A DNA stretch of 31,497 bases from a virus: positions 1 to 31,497 of the IMG/VR virus record IMGVR_UViG_3300030419_000225. The stretch is one strand, 5' to 3'. The stretch's first letter is position 1. Every line of letters begins with the position of its first letter. A program made the translations under genes and the position numbers. The notes beneath the pieces are model-generated. The model was not told the origin of the DNA, made no database searches, and saw only the letters and a list, made by a program, of their open reading frames with translations. This document shows positions 7,137 through 24,133 of the stretch, piece after piece.

Positions 7137-7267
7137 AAGAAGAAATTAAATTAATAGGTAGGCGTACCGAAGAAACTTTACATATTATTGTAGATCATTT
7201 TAAAGAAGTAGACGAACGCTTAGAAGAACTTGAAGATAGGCTTGAGAAATTAGAAGATGCCAATTGA
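7118..7267 (+). CDS. Coiled-coil microprotein, 49 aa
   Basis: M-E-R-D-K-I-E-E-E-I-K-L-I-G-R-R-T-E-E-T, then a very regular charged helix with heptad spacing (VDERLEELEDRLEKLEDAN). It would form a short coiled coil. AAAGG lies five bases before the ATG. It overlaps the previous gene by 19 bases and the next by 11, so it belongs to a translationally linked chain. Function unknown; a small assembly or oligomerisation factor is possible. Confidence 0.65.
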   Translation: MERDKIEEEIKLIGRRTEETLHIIVDHFKEVDERLEELEDRLEKLEDAN

Positions 7268-8156
7268 AACTTTAGCACTTAACGATGTACTGAATAATAA
7301 GACTGCTCATTTCTTTAAGTCTGGTAGTGTTTTAAGGAATGAAGAGAACGAAAGATTAAATGAAGTACACAAGCTGTTGCCCCCCAAGGGCAACGCCGGA
7401 ACGAATCTTGAGTACGATATTTGGTATGATTTTCCCAAAGATCCTAAGATACATGGATATGTGTATACAGATGCTATGTCTAAGTTTATTTATATGAAGC
7501 CTGCTTCGTTTAAATATGCTAGTAAAGTAATGATTGAATCCATGAAAGAAGTTGTTACTGAAGAAGGCGATATGCTTTTTAAAGAATTGGCAATTAAAAG
7601 TTTAGATAAATATAAACTAAGAAGAACAAAGTTTAAACCAAAGCATGTTATCTTTTTGCCGGGAACAAACATACTATATGATATAGTAGATATGAAAAAA
7701 GTAGAACAAGAAGTAGATAAAGGTGCGTATCTGAAATGTCATCCTCTTACTTCTGCTTATGCTTTTGCGGATTTAAAAAGAAAATTTAAAGATCGTATAA
7801 TAGACAAGAAGCTGTCTGGACATGCTATATTAAAACAAGCAGAGATTGTAGGGTGTTGTAGTAATTCTGAAATGGGATTAATAGGTTTAGCACAAGGAAG
7901 TAAAGTAAACTTATTTGATAAAGAAGGATGCAACCCTAGAACATATACTGCTATATATACTGCTTTATGGAAAGGAAAATTAGACAATGAGCCAAGTCCT
8001 TTAGATTTAAAGCGCATATTGTCTTCAGAATACTCAGGTCTTGTTTCTTATTTAGTACACAATCCGAAAGAACGAATAGATAACTTTTTTAATTATTTTA
8101 AAGATATAGAGCATGTCAAGCCTAAAAAACCGAAAGATCTTAATACTGGAGGTTAA
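7257..8156 (+). CDS. Capsule-polysaccharide-synthesis-like protein (GT-B-like)
   Basis: A 299-aa protein whose middle and C-terminal part resembles GT-B sugar transferases of the capsule-synthesis kind: a strand HVIFLPG, then L-K-C-H-P-L-T-S-A-Y, a spaced D-R-I-I-D-K-K-L-S, and the block EIVGCCSNSEMGLIGLAQGSKVNL split by the usual turn, comparable to the nucleotide-sugar-binding end of those enzymes. Substrate unknown. It sits between TerS and TerL together with a second glycan-type gene, an unusual place. It could modify a virion protein or a host surface sugar; it could also be a non-enzymatic homologue. Confidence 0.5.
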   Translation: MPIETLALNDVLNNKTAHFFKSGSVLRNEENERLNEVHKLLPPKGNAGTNLEYDIWYDFPKDPKIHGYVYTDAMSKFIYMKPASFKYASKVMIESMKEVVTEEGDMLFKELAIKSLDKYKLRRTKFKPKHVIFLPGTNILYDIVDMKKVEQEVDKGAYLKCHPLTSAYAFADLKRKFKDRIIDKKLSGHAILKQAEIVGCCSNSEMGLIGLAQGSKVNLFDKEGCNPRTYTAIYTALWKGKLDNEPSPLDLKRILSSEYSGLVSYLVHNPKERIDNFFNYFKDIEHVKPKKPKDLNTGG

Positions 8157-8841
8157 TAACTTAACAGCTTTAACGATCAACTCTATTGAAATGAACATGC
8201 CACAGTTTCAATATAAAGTTGTTCCATGTGGAAAAAGTAAACTAGCTACAGCATTACATAATATAGATGACATTACTTTAGTAGTTAAAAGCGGATTAGT
8301 ATTAAATATAAAAGATAGTGACTTACCTAGTAGAGAGAAATTAATGCGCTATGATATGTGCGTAAGCAGACAAGGAGTTTATGTAGATCATCCATCAATA
8401 GCAAAACATTATAATCTAGTAGATACACCAATGAATAAAGGAATAATAGATCTTTCGTTATTTATAATCAATCCTTTAAAATGGTATAGGATTCCTGCTA
8501 AAGACCAAGGCATATTACCAAATATAAAAAAATTATTTATGCCTAGATATATGAACCATAGAGATGATCCTATATTTAAAGAACAGACTATTAATTGTTC
8601 AGATGCTCTTACTTATGGTGTACTCGGAGAAAGTGCTTGCATTTATAATTATATAGATATATTAAATAAAAAAGATATATCAGTCTTGGAAACATATGCA
8701 TATTGTTTAGATAAATTATTACCTTATACAGAAGGTCTTCCTAAAAAAGAAAAAGAAATTGTAGAGCATTTAGGAAGCCTAACAAAAAAAAGAATTTCTA
8801 GAATGAGACGAAAATTACATAATGTTAAATATATAACTTAG
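8113..8841 (+). CDS. Hypothetical protein, possible glycosyltransferase-like partner
   Basis: A 242-aa protein starting with an alpha/beta-looking segment (KILILEVNNLTALTINSIE), then DDITLVVKSGLVL, CVSRQGVYVDHPSI, MPRYMNHRDDPIF and a basic C-terminus. The layout recalls small phage glycosyltransferase-like proteins, but I see no clear DxD motif, so the call is weak. The start overlaps the GT-B-like gene by 44 bases; a GGAGG at about 8148 lies inside the frame without a suitable ATG nearby. The overlap suggests the two proteins act together. Confidence 0.45.
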   Translation: MSSLKNRKILILEVNNLTALTINSIEMNMPQFQYKVVPCGKSKLATALHNIDDITLVVKSGLVLNIKDSDLPSREKLMRYDMCVSRQGVYVDHPSIAKHYNLVDTPMNKGIIDLSLFIINPLKWYRIPAKDQGILPNIKKLFMPRYMNHRDDPIFKEQTINCSDALTYGVLGESACIYNYIDILNKKDISVLETYAYCLDKLLPYTEGLPKKEKEIVEHLGSLTKKRISRMRRKLHNVKYIT

Positions 8842-18869: not shown

Positions 18870-21671
18870 ATGGCACAAAACTATACTAGACAAAGCTCAT
18901 TTAGTGATGGCGATACCATTACTGCCGCATTGTTTAATAATGAATATGATCAATTAGTAAACGCATTTACTTATAGCTCAAGTAGTGCGTCAACTACAGG
19001 GCATAGACACGATGGAACAGCAGGACAAGGCGGTAACATTCCGCAAATAGGGGATTTAGATTTCCTTAATAAAATCGTAGTAGATGATTCTAATAATAGA
19101 TGGGGATTCTTTGTTCAAGTATCTAGCTCAGCAGTCGAACAAATTAGAATACAAGACGGAGCTATTGTTCCTGTTACAGACAATGATATTGATTTAGGTA
19201 CAAGTTCTTTAGAATTTAAAGACGCTTACTTTGATGGTACAGTAACTTCTGATGCTTTTGCCGGACCTTTAACAGGAGATGTTACAGGTAATGTTTCAGG
19301 TACTGCCGCTACAGTAACCGGAGCCGCACAAACAAATATTACTTCACTTGGAACATTAACAGCCTTAACCGTAGACAACATAGCCATTGATGGAACTACC
19401 ATAGGACATACAGGAGATACAGATCTTCTTACTTTAACAAGCGGAGTACTTACAGTAGCAGGAGAAGTAGATGCTACAAGTTTAGATATTTCGGGTGATG
19501 CAGATATTGACGGTACATTAGAAGCTGACGCATACACAGTAGACGGAACAGCTTTAAATGAATATATAGCTGATACAGTAGGAGCTATGTTCACAGGTAA
19601 TACTGAAACAAATATTACTGCAACATACCAAGATGGTGACAATACGATTGATCTAGTAGCTACTGGAACTATTTCTGCACTAAACAATCCTACAGAAAAC
19701 GAACTTGTTACAGTAGGTTCAACTACATCAGAGTTAGATGCAGAAGCAAATTTAACATTTGACGGAACTACTTTAACTACTACTGCTATTTCTGTAGATG
19801 ATCTTAGGCTTGATGGAGCTACTATAGGACATTCAAGTGATACAGATCTTATTACACTTGCAGATGGAGTAGTTACAGTAGCAGGTGAATTAGACGCTAC
19901 GACATTAGATATTTCAGGAAATGCAGATATAGATGGAACTTTAGAAGCCGATGCTTATACAGTAGACGGAACTGCATTAAACGAATATATTGCAGATACT
20001 GTAGGAGCTATGGTATCTTCTAATACAGAGACAAATATAACAGTTACCTACGAAGACGGAGACAATACGTTAGACTTTGTAATTGGAACACTTAACCAAG
20101 ACACTACAGGAACAGCAGATAATATTACAGTCTCTGCAAATAATAGCACAGACGAAACGGTATATCCTATATTTGTAGATGGAGCCACAGGATCACAAGG
20201 AGCAGAGTCTGATACAGGACTTACTTATAATCCTAGCACAGGAGTATTAACATCTACTTCATTTACAGGTAATGTAACAGGTAATGTAACAGGTAATGCG
20301 TCTGGAACTGCGGCGACTGTCACAGGTGCGGCACAAACAAACATTACAAGTCTTGGAACTCTTACAGCACTTACTGTTGATAATGTTGCAATTGATGGTG
20401 CAGTAATTGGACATACTAGTGATACAGATTTAATAACGCTGTCAAGCGGTGTAGTAACTGTTGCAGGGGAAGTAGACGCAACCAGTTTAGATATTTCAGG
20501 AGATGCCGATATTGATGGTACTCTTGAAGCAGATGCAATTACAGTTAATGGTTCAAGTTTAGCAAGTGTGATTGCAGGAACTACAGTAGCAAATGCAACA
20601 TTAGCCGCTACAGCTACAGTATCAGACAGCACAGCAAACACTAATTTTCCTATAGTTTTTCACGATGAGTCTAATGGACTACTAGATGATACAGGTGCTT
20701 TAAGATACAACCCAAGCACAGGAGAACTATTAGTTCCTAAGCTGACTGTAGCAGGCACAACTACTACGGCAGACACGGTAACGATGGAAGCGAGTAATGC
20801 AATTATTTTTGAAGGAGCAACTGCGGATTCAAATGAAACTACTCTTTCTATAGTAGATCCTACATCAGACCACACACAATACTTAGTAAACCAAGGCGGA
20901 TATATTCCAGTCTTGGCGGCGGCTACTACAACTCAAATTAGTTCAACACCAGAAGAATTAAATATTCTTGATGGTGCTACTGTTGTTGTCGGCGAAATAA
21001 ATGCTCTTGATTTAGGCTCTACTGCAATTGGTACAGCGATTGCTTCTAAAGCAGTTGTACTAGACGCTAACAAAGATTATACAGGTGTTAGAAACTTTAC
21101 AATAACTGGTGAACTAGACGGAGCTAGTTTAGATATTTCAGGCGATGCAGACATAGATGGTACAACTAATTTAGATGCTGTTGATATTGATGGAGCAGTA
21201 CAAATAGATAATACTGTTACTGTAGGTGTTGACGATACAGGATATGATGTTAAATTCTTTGGTGCTACTGCTAGTGCATATATGCTATGGGATGAATCAG
21301 AAGACGATTTAATTCTTAGTGGTGCGGCTAGAGCAGTTATTCCAGATGGACAACTAGTATTAGGAAGCACAGCAGTTTCAAGTACTGCGGCAGAATTAAA
21401 TTTATTAGATGGTGTTTCTGGACTAGTCCAAGCAGACTTTACAAAATTAGCGGCGGTAGATGCTACTGCGGCAGAGTTAAATATAATGGACGGAGGGACT
21501 GCCGCTAGTTCTACAACACTTGCAGACGCAGACAGATTAGTAGTCAACGATAATGGAACAATGAAACAAGTAGCAATGACTGACTTTGATTCAGACAGAT
21601 TTACTATTACAACTTCTGCACCAACATCAGGAAGCGGTAAAAGAACTGGTCATGTATGGTACGTTGTATAA
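18870..21671 (+). CDS. Repeat-built tail fibre protein
   Basis: A 933-aa protein after AGGGAGAG. The N-terminal 90 residues (SFSDGDTITAALFNNEYDQL, TGHRHDGTAG) are the conserved virion-attached part seen in marine podovirus fibres. The shaft has three long repeats with LTALTVDNIAIDG, IGHTGDTDLLTL, LDISGDADIDGTLEADA and NEYIADTVGAM-like blocks at about residues 158-240, 309-385 and 493-560, and shorter ones later; a beta-helical trimer is likely. The C-terminus ends SGSGKRTGHVWYVV. It probably binds the host or supports the next protein. Confidence 0.8.
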   Translation: MAQNYTRQSSFSDGDTITAALFNNEYDQLVNAFTYSSSSASTTGHRHDGTAGQGGNIPQIGDLDFLNKIVVDDSNNRWGFFVQVSSSAVEQIRIQDGAIVPVTDNDIDLGTSSLEFKDAYFDGTVTSDAFAGPLTGDVTGNVSGTAATVTGAAQTNITSLGTLTALTVDNIAIDGTTIGHTGDTDLLTLTSGVLTVAGEVDATSLDISGDADIDGTLEADAYTVDGTALNEYIADTVGAMFTGNTETNITATYQDGDNTIDLVATGTISALNNPTENELVTVGSTTSELDAEANLTFDGTTLTTTAISVDDLRLDGATIGHSSDTDLITLADGVVTVAGELDATTLDISGNADIDGTLEADAYTVDGTALNEYIADTVGAMVSSNTETNITVTYEDGDNTLDFVIGTLNQDTTGTADNITVSANNSTDETVYPIFVDGATGSQGAESDTGLTYNPSTGVLTSTSFTGNVTGNVTGNASGTAATVTGAAQTNITSLGTLTALTVDNVAIDGAVIGHTSDTDLITLSSGVVTVAGEVDATSLDISGDADIDGTLEADAITVNGSSLASVIAGTTVANATLAATATVSDSTANTNFPIVFHDESNGLLDDTGALRYNPSTGELLVPKLTVAGTTTTADTVTMEASNAIIFEGATADSNETTLSIVDPTSDHTQYLVNQGGYIPVLAAATTTQISSTPEELNILDGATVVVGEINALDLGSTAIGTAIASKAVVLDANKDYTGVRNFTITGELDGASLDISGDADIDGTTNLDAVDIDGAVQIDNTVTVGVDDTGYDVKFFGATASAYMLWDESEDDLILSGAARAVIPDGQLVLGSTAVSSTAAELNLLDGVSGLVQADFTKLAAVDATAAELNIMDGGTAASSTTLADADRLVVNDNGTMKQVAMTDFDSDRFTITTSAPTSGSGKRTGHVWYVV
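19345..20575 (+). repeat. Internal repeats of the fibre gene
   Basis: Three diverged copies of a unit of about 230 bases start near 19345, 19800 and 20350. The protein repeat is conserved while synonymous positions differ, so the copies are old and selected at protein level. A fourth fragment lies near 21113-21170. Confidence 0.7.
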
Positions 21672-21688: not shown

Positions 21689-24133
21689 ATGGCTCTCAAG
21701 ATTTGGGATGGAGATTCGATAGAAACACCTAAACAGTTACATATTAAAGTAACTGATGGGACTGTCAAATTTGTAAACTATGCTGTCGTAAAAGAGACAG
21801 ATGGTAGTTTGTCTACATTCTTTAATGCTATTTATAATACAGACAGAGCTACAGCAACGAGCAGAAGTACAACAACTGCTTTTGATACAACTACAACGTA
21901 TGATACAACTACTACGTTTGATACAACTACAACGTATGATACAGACACTACAATAGCTACAAGCGGAAGTACTACTACAACTTTTGATACTAATACTTCA
22001 GCAACTACAGATACTACTAGTTCTACTGCAACTACTAAAACTACAGATACAGCAATAGCTACTACTACTGCGTATGATACAACAACAGCTTTTGCAACTG
22101 CTACACAAACTGCATACGCTACAAATACGACAACTGTATACGATACTACTACAACGTATGAGACTGCAACAGCTTTTGATACAACGACTGCTTATGCTAC
22201 AGCAACTACTAGAACGACAGACACTAGTAAAACAACTGCTACGAATACTTCGTATGCAACAGATACAACTACTGTTTACGATACAACAACTGCATACGAA
22301 ACTGATAAGGCTACAGCAACTGCTACAAGTAAAAGCACAGCAACTGAAACAGCGTATGGAACTGCAACTACAACTACGTTTGATACTGATACAACCATAG
22401 CAACTGCAACTAGTAAGGCTACAGGAACAAGTAAGTCTACTGCAACTGAAACAGCGTATGGTACTGCGACTACAACTTCGTTTGATACTACAACGACTTT
22501 TGCTACAGCAACATCAGGCGATACAAATACGACAACTACGTATAATACAAGTAAGTCTACAGCAACTAGTGGAGCTACTAATACTACAACTACGTATGGT
22601 ACTACTACAACGTATGCAACAGCGACTAGTGGATCTACTAATACAACAACTACGTTTAATACTACGACTACGTATAATACAAGTAGATCGACAACATTTA
22701 ATACAAGTAGAACGACTACATTTAATACCAGTAGAACAACTACATACAATACTAGTAGAACAACTACGTTTAATACGTCAGGAAGCAGATCTACAAGTTA
22801 CAGTTTTAATACAAGTTATAGTTTTAATACAAGTACTTCGTATAGTTTTAATACAAGTTATTCGTTTAACACAACAGGAACTACTACAAGGTCTACAACT
22901 ACATCTTGGACAACTGTTTGGGGTAAAGCAAATAACTCAAGAACTACCTCACAAAGTACAGTAGAAGGAAACACAACATATAGTTTCTCTACTTCTGGGA
23001 ATAAATGGACTTCTGGAAGTAGAAACACAAATACATCAGGATCTAAGAGTACCTCTGGATCTAGGAATACTAGTTATACTTTTAATACAAGCAGAACTAC
23101 AACATTTAATACAAGTAAATCTACAACATATAATACGAGCAGATCTACTACATTTAATACAAGCAGGACGACTACATTTAATACATCGAAATCAACTGCT
23201 ACAAGTAAGAGTACTGGAACAAGCTACAGTTTTAATACTAATACTAGCAAATCAACCGCTACAAGTAAAAGTACTGGAACAACTTATAGTTTTAATACTA
23301 CAACTACTTACAATACAAGCAAAGCAACTGGAACAACTTATAGCTTTAATACTGCAACAAGTAAAACAACAGGAACAAGTAGATCAACAGATGAAGATAC
23401 AACAATAGCTACTAATACTACTACTGCATATGACACTACTACAACTTTTGATACTGCAACTGCATATGCTACAGCTACAAGTAAATCAACAGATGAAGAT
23501 ACTACTATAGCAACGAATACTACAACGACTTTTGATACAGATACTACAACAACTTATGATACTTCAAAAGCAACAGCGACTAGTAAGGCAACAGCTACTG
23601 ATACTACAATAGCTACAAATACTACAACGACTTATGGTACGACTACAACTTTTGATACTGATACAGCGATTGCAACAGGAACTAGTAGAAATACAGATAC
23701 TTCAAAAGCAACAGCAACTAGTAAGAGTACTGCGACTGATACAACAATAGCAACTAATACAGATACTACTAGTGCTACAGGAACAAGCAAATCAACTGAT
23801 ACTGCTTTCCAAACAAACACAGCAGGAACTACGACAACTGCTTTTGGAACAGCAACTAGTGGAGCTACTGCAACAAGTAAGAGTACTACTACAGCTTTTG
23901 AAACTGCCTATGCAACTGCTACAAGCAAAGCAACTGCAACTAGTAGAGCAAGTGCAACAAGTAAAGCTACTGGTACAAGTAAGAGTACTACTAGTACGTT
24001 TAATACAGATACTTCAATATTTGAAAGAAGTACTGCTACAGGAAACACAGGATCTATTATTGAAACAGAAGTAGCTTCAGGTTCTGCGCACAATGCTAGA
24101 TATTGGGACGGAGATTCATGGGAGGAAGATTAG
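21689..24133 (+). CDS. Giant Thr/Ser-repeat adhesin-like tail protein
   Basis: An 814-aa protein after GGAGAGGACTAGAAA. The N-terminus M-A-L-K-I-W-D-G-D-S and about 45 ordinary residues are followed by about 730 residues dominated by Thr and Ser in short units: 6-residue T-T-T-[FY]-D-T, 8-residue T-T-T-F-N-T-S-R, and T-A-T-S-K-S. A less regular island with Trp (TSWTTVWGKANNSR) lies near 390-440. The C-terminus R-Y-W-D-G-D-S-W-E-E-D mirrors the N-terminal WDGDS. It is likely a fibre-tip or surface protein, perhaps a beta-solenoid and a possible O-glycosylation target. No known family covers the repeat. Confidence 0.75.
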   Translation: MALKIWDGDSIETPKQLHIKVTDGTVKFVNYAVVKETDGSLSTFFNAIYNTDRATATSRSTTTAFDTTTTYDTTTTFDTTTTYDTDTTIATSGSTTTTFDTNTSATTDTTSSTATTKTTDTAIATTTAYDTTTAFATATQTAYATNTTTVYDTTTTYETATAFDTTTAYATATTRTTDTSKTTATNTSYATDTTTVYDTTTAYETDKATATATSKSTATETAYGTATTTTFDTDTTIATATSKATGTSKSTATETAYGTATTTSFDTTTTFATATSGDTNTTTTYNTSKSTATSGATNTTTTYGTTTTYATATSGSTNTTTTFNTTTTYNTSRSTTFNTSRTTTFNTSRTTTYNTSRTTTFNTSGSRSTSYSFNTSYSFNTSTSYSFNTSYSFNTTGTTTRSTTTSWTTVWGKANNSRTTSQSTVEGNTTYSFSTSGNKWTSGSRNTNTSGSKSTSGSRNTSYTFNTSRTTTFNTSKSTTYNTSRSTTFNTSRTTTFNTSKSTATSKSTGTSYSFNTNTSKSTATSKSTGTTYSFNTTTTYNTSKATGTTYSFNTATSKTTGTSRSTDEDTTIATNTTTAYDTTTTFDTATAYATATSKSTDEDTTIATNTTTTFDTDTTTTYDTSKATATSKATATDTTIATNTTTTYGTTTTFDTDTAIATGTSRNTDTSKATATSKSTATDTTIATNTDTTSATGTSKSTDTAFQTNTAGTTTTAFGTATSGATATSKSTTTAFETAYATATSKATATSRASATSKATGTSKSTTSTFNTDTSIFERSTATGNTGSIIETEVASGSAHNARYWDGDSWEED

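Follow-up and report, generated by a model that had tools for sequence, protein, structure and literature searches.

What kind of protein is formed by a threonine-rich repeat of some 730 residues, and what does it do for the virus that encodes it? The question is raised by a gene in the window analysed here, the whole stretch of 31,497 nucleotides (positions 1 to 31,497) of IMG/VR virus record IMGVR_UViG_3300030419_000225, a 31.5 kb record of an uncultivated virus. Its product of 814 amino acids (aa) contains 318 Thr (39%), 106 Ser (13%) and 86 Ala residues (11%), amounting to a T + S content of 52%, and a single Pro. An original prediction, made from the letters alone, described units of 6 and 8 residues between matching WDGDS ends and considered a beta-solenoid or a mucin-like stalk. 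Our analysis instead indicates that the protein is most likely a giant antiparallel beta-hairpin acting as a phage fibre.

The predicted repeat is real and covers residues 49–777 (729 aa), hereafter the core. Autocorrelation of residue identity in the core was compared with shuffled sequences up to lag 60. All even lags above 4 were enriched (z-scores of + 14 at lag 6, + 11 at lag 8 and + 15 at lag 34), whereas the odd lags passing the cutoff were all depleted, many of them with z-scores of − 5 to − 7, indicating that the two-residue phase never slips across the core. Spacings between aromatic residues are almost all even. Those of 6 (n = 16) and 8 (n = 14) are the commonest, followed by 2 (n = 9), but with 4, 14, 18, 20 and others also present and a range of 2–52 there is no constant coil length, so that units of 6 and 8 describe the repeat incompletely. 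Within the arms, every Phe, Tyr, Lys and Arg lies on one parity, together with Thr; the opposite parity holds nearly all Ala, Asn and Asp, most Ser and the remaining Thr. The regular aromatic/Thr ladder, rightly described as unlike ordinary phage fibres, thus shows an alternation of the beta-strand type.

The original prediction overlooked two features, a central non-repeat tip (WGKANN) and the fact that the halves of the core are mirror-complementary. For a first, cap-anchored test the C arm was read backwards against the N arm and aromatics were scored against Lys/Arg. One fixed register was obtained, with an offset of − 4 between the two anchors, independent of protein length. The correlation at this offset was 0.59–0.85 in the six proteins shown, with every other offset lower, and it ranked first among 121 offsets in 30 of 41 proteins, the remainder being mostly short. 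An anchor-free test scored every mirror axis that a protein can have by the excess of aromatic residues facing Lys, Arg or His. In 58 of 60 complete proteins the best axis coincided exactly with the register defined by the caps, with z-scores of up to 27 and runner-up axes of 9–11 in the long ones. For the window protein, the antiparallel z-score of 14.6 compares with a parallel one of 6.8, and 40 aromatic–basic pairs were counted against 8.2 ± 3.2 (maximum 17) in 180 even cyclic shifts. Nearly all Lys/Arg residues of its arms (41 of 45) lie opposite an aromatic residue or Ile of the other arm. Parallel (translational) complementarity was rejected, being weaker in every protein tested.

Tabulated over 21 loci, the facing residues come close to a code. 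Arg in the N arm faces Phe in the C arm in 160 of 181 cases, and the corresponding counts are 48/49 for His–Tyr, 206/260 for Phe–Arg/Lys, 148/187 for Tyr–Lys/His/Arg and 136/197 for Asn–Ser, while Thr shuns aromatic and basic partners. These counts are not independent, given the shared ancestry of the loci; the z-scores of single proteins, the out-of-sample tests and the indels are unaffected.

Relatives were gathered by IMG/VR scans with the whole protein and with alignments of both ends, and are cited below by locus number (L). Complete proteins range from 230 to 1534 aa, incomplete ones being longer, and share a layout of N-cap (about 48 aa), T/S arm, non-repeat tip, second T/S arm and C-cap (about 37 aa). 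The tip consists of a short GK loop in the clade of the window and often a domain of 60–100 aa elsewhere, and is central for core lengths from 153 to 1455 residues. The GK position, as a fraction of the core, is 0.499 in the window protein (core of 729 residues) and L005 (1269), 0.500 in L009 (177), L011 (185), L012 (153), L015 (185) and L021 (209), and 0.502 in L007 (236) and L022 (318). N and C arms measure 361/361 residues in the window protein, 700/700 in L096, 442/442 in L088, 446/444 in L027, 125/124 in L073 and 66/63 in L024, and this equality holds across an eightfold size range.

The two arms were also aligned independently between close relatives, which revealed matched indels at equal distances from the base. 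Examples are + 12 at 59/59 (second genes of L019 and L021), − 8 at 96/97 (L143/L146), − 4 at 75/79 (L145/L146), − 2 at 120/118 (L070/L087), and both − 14 (about 40–52/46) and − 4 in both arms of L065/L071. Mirror symmetry of a sequence might be the by-product of an inverted DNA duplication, but no inverted repeat was found in the window gene, no Thr codon has a Thr codon as its reverse complement, and the arms are class-complementary (aromatic against basic) rather than identical. Such an origin can practically be dismissed.

Outside this sample, a 78.5 kb contig (L210/L229) carries the two arms as adjacent genes A (1211 aa) and B (1042 aa), which lie 3' of a collagen-like gene and have stop codons and an intergenic stretch between them. 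Neither product has a clear internal mirror axis. Compared with each other, A and B reach an antiparallel z-score of 31 (next 17, parallel 7.9) over all 1000 residues, with Tyr opposite His in 22 of 23 cases and Trp, Phe or Tyr opposite Arg in 47 of 49. The C-terminal end of the first gene of L229 has, by eye, a Hint/intein-like look (CIVEGSLVHIS...ILTHN) and gave no Pfam match.

These patterns bear on both folds proposed originally. A beta-solenoid or left-handed beta-helix with a flat Thr face, as in ice-binding or antifreeze proteins, would suit the six-residue units with aromatics, the abundance of Thr and the two-residue alternation. Unit lengths are mixed, however (6, 8, 10, 14 and more), a residue is complementary to its mirror position, at distances of up to 1400 residues, and not to the next coil, and equal arms and mirrored indels would be meaningless in such a fold, which is hence most improbable. 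Hardly better is the case for a disordered, heavily O-glycosylated mucin-like stalk whose pattern reflects the site preference of a glycosyltransferase. The T + S content is as expected for a mucin, and the presence of an accompanying glycosyltransferase-like gene is the part of this proposal that stands. Site preference cannot account for position i predicting position s − i across the arms, though, nor for a split two-gene version in which this relation persists, and disorder is contradicted by one Pro in 814 residues, where mucin-like tracts are usually rich in Pro, and by the strict two-residue phase.

The two arms therefore very likely pair in antiparallel orientation, as judged from their sequences. 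Equal arms, antiparallel complementarity, mirrored indels, the split two-gene version and the companion gene described below are the support for the hairpin fibre at sequence level; from them we infer beta structure, a trimer, receptor binding and glycosylation. The chain would leave the N-cap, the putative site of attachment to the virion, and go outward as a long beta-strand of about 360 residues in the window protein. It would turn at the non-repeat tip and come back, exactly in register, to the C-cap, which would lie next to the N-cap. An extended strand measures about 0.33 nm per residue; an arm would thus span about 120 nm in the window protein, if fully extended, and about 230 nm in the longest complete proteins. 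The register would be set by the code on one face, with Arg/Lys against Phe/Tyr/Trp, His against Tyr and Thr against Thr. Since both faces of a two-stranded ribbon would lie exposed, association is expected, most simply of three hairpins. The small residues of the other face (Ser, Ala, Asn, Asp, Thr) would then pack in the core of a six-stranded needle with the aromatic–basic ladder on its outside, and we slightly favour this trimeric arrangement. It is also reasonably likely that the pattern is a self-recognition code in which the arms, of one chain or of two genes, pair over hundreds of residues in a near-digital manner reminiscent of nucleic acids (Arg–Phe, His–Tyr, Lys–aromatic, Thr–Thr). 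Insertions would be paired and mirrored, leaving fibre length free (arms of about 75–700 residues) without loss of register at base and tip.

Alternatively, arms could pair between neighbouring chains in an intertwined antiparallel oligomer. The split version demonstrates that pairing between chains is possible, and each arm of a six-stranded trimer would also adjoin one of another chain. A turn of few residues (GK) at the exact middle, however, offers the simplest path to an intrachain hairpin, and an AlphaFold2 monomer model of L012 places strands on either side of GK (113–121 and 131–139, a hairpin around the tip), albeit with low confidence. We regard interchain pairing as unlikely, though less so than the other alternatives.

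The caps do not behave as the original prediction proposed. WDGDS indeed occurs at both ends (residues 6–10 and 806–810), but the notion of a single small domain split by repeat expansion did not hold. The N-cap consists of three short WxG-like hairpins and the C-cap is of the form FER..ARYWDG, so that the two differ and are not equivalent. In many relatives, NDSGT or NDNGT stands in place of the N-terminal WDGDS, whereas the C-terminal WDGSQW is kept, and no relative with caps and without arms was found in IMG/VR. The protein contains only two His residues, one in each cap. The reading frame is under purifying selection: the ratio of nonsynonymous to synonymous polymorphism (pN/pS) is 0.09 for the window gene against the close relative L002 and 0.22–0.49 in three further pairs. 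A near-identical copy of the window gene (L001:6001-8446) is split into open reading frames (ORFs) of 526 and 218 aa, by assembly error or decay possibly. Some genomes carry two distinct, closely spaced genes of this type (L019:5194-8718, L021:2602-6210, L007), and in L019 and L021 a glycosyltransferase-like gene pair sits between them.

Across 28 close pairs, mean identity was 0.57 for the tip, 0.82 for the arms, 0.94 for the N-cap and 0.99 for the C-cap. The tip is the fastest-diverging part, as is typical of a receptor-binding tip carried by a conserved stalk. Probably, then, the protein is an adsorption fibre, and its tip, often a hypervariable domain of 60–100 residues, would bind the receptor. 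In the window and its relatives the gene stands after tail-fibre genes with GHVWYVV ends. The product of the upstream gene of the window has repeated T.AELN.LDG-like units, and its counterpart in L217 matches tail fiber PHROGs. The Pfam match of the window product to Bactofilin (E 1.9e-9) probably reflects a generic beta-repeat resemblance. A location on the capsid, as a head fibre, is suggested by a SAR92-clade provirus (L150:38-10361; this scaffold is the sole match of the family in the genome collection), in which the order is capsid, collagen-like, hairpin, ..., tail tube. The gene order of the window and relatives, the hypervariable tips and a similar ladder at the C-terminus of a baseplate wedge protein (see below) speak against it, so that a head fibre appears improbable.

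A precedent is found in the C-terminal part of T4 gp37, a six-stranded antiparallel beta-needle of three chains with a receptor-binding head (PMC9659904). Both chains go out and back in antiparallel fashion via a central tip, in the present case as judged by sequence only. In gp37 the HxH pairs 915/980 and 929/966 mirror each other about residue 948, an axis enclosed by the putative receptor-specificity stretch 932–965 (PMC9659904), suggesting that a fibre of solved structure follows the same principle. The proteins described here differ in that arms of about 75–700 residues make up almost the whole protein, which has its own N-cap and C-cap, and in using an aromatic–basic code across the arms instead of mirrored HxH. 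T + S amounts to about 52% in the window protein and 29% in gp37 861–1026; seven HxH occur in gp37 801–1026 and none along the arms of the window protein. Comparison of profile A3 and the KVP40-type protein with PDB sequences gave no match at E 1, gp37 included. The hairpin fibre would thus work like the gp37 needle without being a member of the gp37 family. The triple-stranded beta-helix of T4 gp5, with an octapeptide carrying Gly, Asn/Asp and Val at fixed places in three intertwined chains (PMC3004832), is likewise a short-period beta fibre of a phage, but here the period is variable and the arms are antiparallel. Nothing relevant on threonine-rich phage fibres, giant hairpins or cross-strand cation–pi fibres was found in the open-access literature, and an earlier description elsewhere is possible.

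A homologue of the phrog_26179 protein is encoded nearby in 66 of 71 distinct C-capped hairpin loci with enough flank. Of the five loci lacking one, four (L001, L002, L003, L005) are from the clade of the window; in the window itself the gene is located elsewhere (7257–8156). An AlphaFold2 model built with 37 relatives was confident, with a predicted local distance difference test (pLDDT) value of 90. The best Foldseek match (2.6e-4) is KpsC, and the best structural neighbours comprise a polysialyltransferase and three 3-deoxy-D-manno-octulosonic acid (Kdo) transferases, KpsC, WbbB and KrkA. The GT-B fold is shared with KpsC, WbbB and KrkA over about 200–230 of 299 residues with Z about 9 (VIA: 9.2 over 217 residues), whereas identity is 11–13% and the present protein is phage-encoded beside a Thr-rich fibre. 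K160, H162 and P163 of a K-x-HP motif are invariant in the 37 sequences; this motif may correspond to the KpsC-type HP motif of transferases using sugars activated by cytidine monophosphate (CMP). The protein is thus predicted to be a GT-B glycosyltransferase using a nucleotide-activated sugar. Because its gene travels with the hairpin gene, O-glycosylation of the fibre is plausible. The Thr-rich fibre would be the likeliest acceptor, an association and not proof, and chances are a little better than even that its outer Thr-rich face is glycosylated by this enzyme. A second companion protein has 69 distinct homologues in the fetched loci, usually encoded directly after phrog_26179; it gave no PHROGs or relevant PDB match, and its homologues no Pfam match. 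Neither companion had a relevant match among PDB sequences.

The ladder proteins of the IMG/VR family matched no Pfam or PHROGs family. Queried by tblastn with the complete protein, its caps, L026, L150 and the split genes, the GenBank phages yielded no match, partly because the low-complexity filter masks the arms. Named phages were reached via the companion phrog_26179 and later via the KVP40-type N-cap. KVP40.0254 (< 200 aa; mirror axis z-score 7.4 against 3.7) and phi-pp2 pp2_249 (phrog_30374) share the mirror-complementary ladder, a central KG tip and an adjacent phrog_26179 homologue, but have another N-cap, no C-cap and arms of about 57 residues. They are annotated as hypothetical or yeast-like mannoprotein, pp2_249 carrying 'cell wall mannoprotein'. 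Mirror-axis z-scores are 8.4 and 8.3 for ladder ORFs of Vibrio phages D479 and K575, respectively; the K575 tip, GCGKGVCG, has a disulfide-clipped look. Several hundred ladder residues form the C-terminus of AMQ65900.1, the T4-like baseplate wedge protein of Stenotrophomonas phage DLP6 (axis z-score 11.4 against 5.3). DLP6_75, X1, Rb1 and BUCTxx99 were rejected: the KVP40-type N-cap is present, but attached to non-ladder sequence.

Besides the gene order of the SAR92-clade provirus, several observations weigh against a hairpin fibre as described. The L012 model (8 sequences) has a mean pLDDT of 34 and no usable fold. In the arms of the window protein, 27 of 67 aromatics lie opposite Gly, Ile, Thr or Ser and not opposite a basic residue. 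The best axis is off register in L068 and L024, the cap register is not always the top offset in short proteins taken singly, and in L018:375-1148 the GK loop is off-centre (78/173 core residues), with the complementarity axis in register. Caulobacter phage Lullwater gp41 and relatives are similar proteins with weak axes. The shared GT-B fold is uninformative on the acceptor.

Table 1 Coordinates of the hairpin gene, its parts, neighbouring genes and related genes elsewhere
Feature	Location	Position (strand)	Remarks
Candidate hairpin fibre protein, mirror-complementary, 814 aa	window	21689..24133 (+)	ORF; mirror axis z-score 14.6, runner-up 6.6
N-cap, residues 1-48	window	21689..21832 (+)	three WxG/TDG-type hairpin repeats; conserved in relatives (alignment A1)
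N arm, residues 49-408	window	21833..22912 (+)	partner of residue 53 is 777; axis at residue 415
Tip/turn, residues 409-420	window	22913..22948 (+)	around WGKANN (411-416); low T/S, exact middle of core
C arm, residues 421-777	window	22949..24019 (+)	K/R of both arms mostly face an aromatic or Ile of the other arm
C-cap, residues 778-814	window	24020..24130 (+)	FER...ARYWDGDSWEED; alignment A2
phrog_26179 protein, 299 aa	window	7257..8156 (+)	GT-B fold, glycosyltransferase-like
Second companion protein, about 240 aa	window	8113..8841 (+)	adjoins phrog_26179; alignment A5 (7 members)
Terminase gene	window	9337	
Portal/connector gene	window	11055	
Major head protein gene	window	15026	
SU10-type adaptor gene	window	16469	
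Virion structural protein gene	window	17230	
Large fibre gene, 933 aa	window	18870..21671 (+)	ends GHVWYVV; immediately 5' of hairpin gene, likewise in relatives
Split-fibre genes A and B	L229	2420-6055 and 6095-9223	
Unannotated ladder ORF, Vibrio phage D479	L235	3001-3513	
Unannotated ladder ORF, Vibrio phage K575	L236	3001-3534	
AMQ65900.1, T4-like baseplate wedge protein, Stenotrophomonas phage DLP6	L233	11408-15274	C-terminal ladder

The same design was found in dozens of marine viruses and in laboratory phages such as KVP40, and those members that were checked in named phages carry the annotation hypothetical or mannoprotein, or none at all (Vibrio phages D479 and K575). If the proposed structure is correct, these proteins would represent a widespread and largely overlooked class of adsorption fibres of marine and other phages. 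The mirror axis would then serve as a test by which sequence alone suffices to recognise fibres of this kind, to predict how long they are and to pinpoint the likely receptor-binding tip, and host-range determinants of uncultivated phages would therefore become identifiable. The family would also constitute a natural set of complementary beta-strand pairs, in which rules of cross-strand pairing and register are directly testable, and a source of protein rods of adjustable length.
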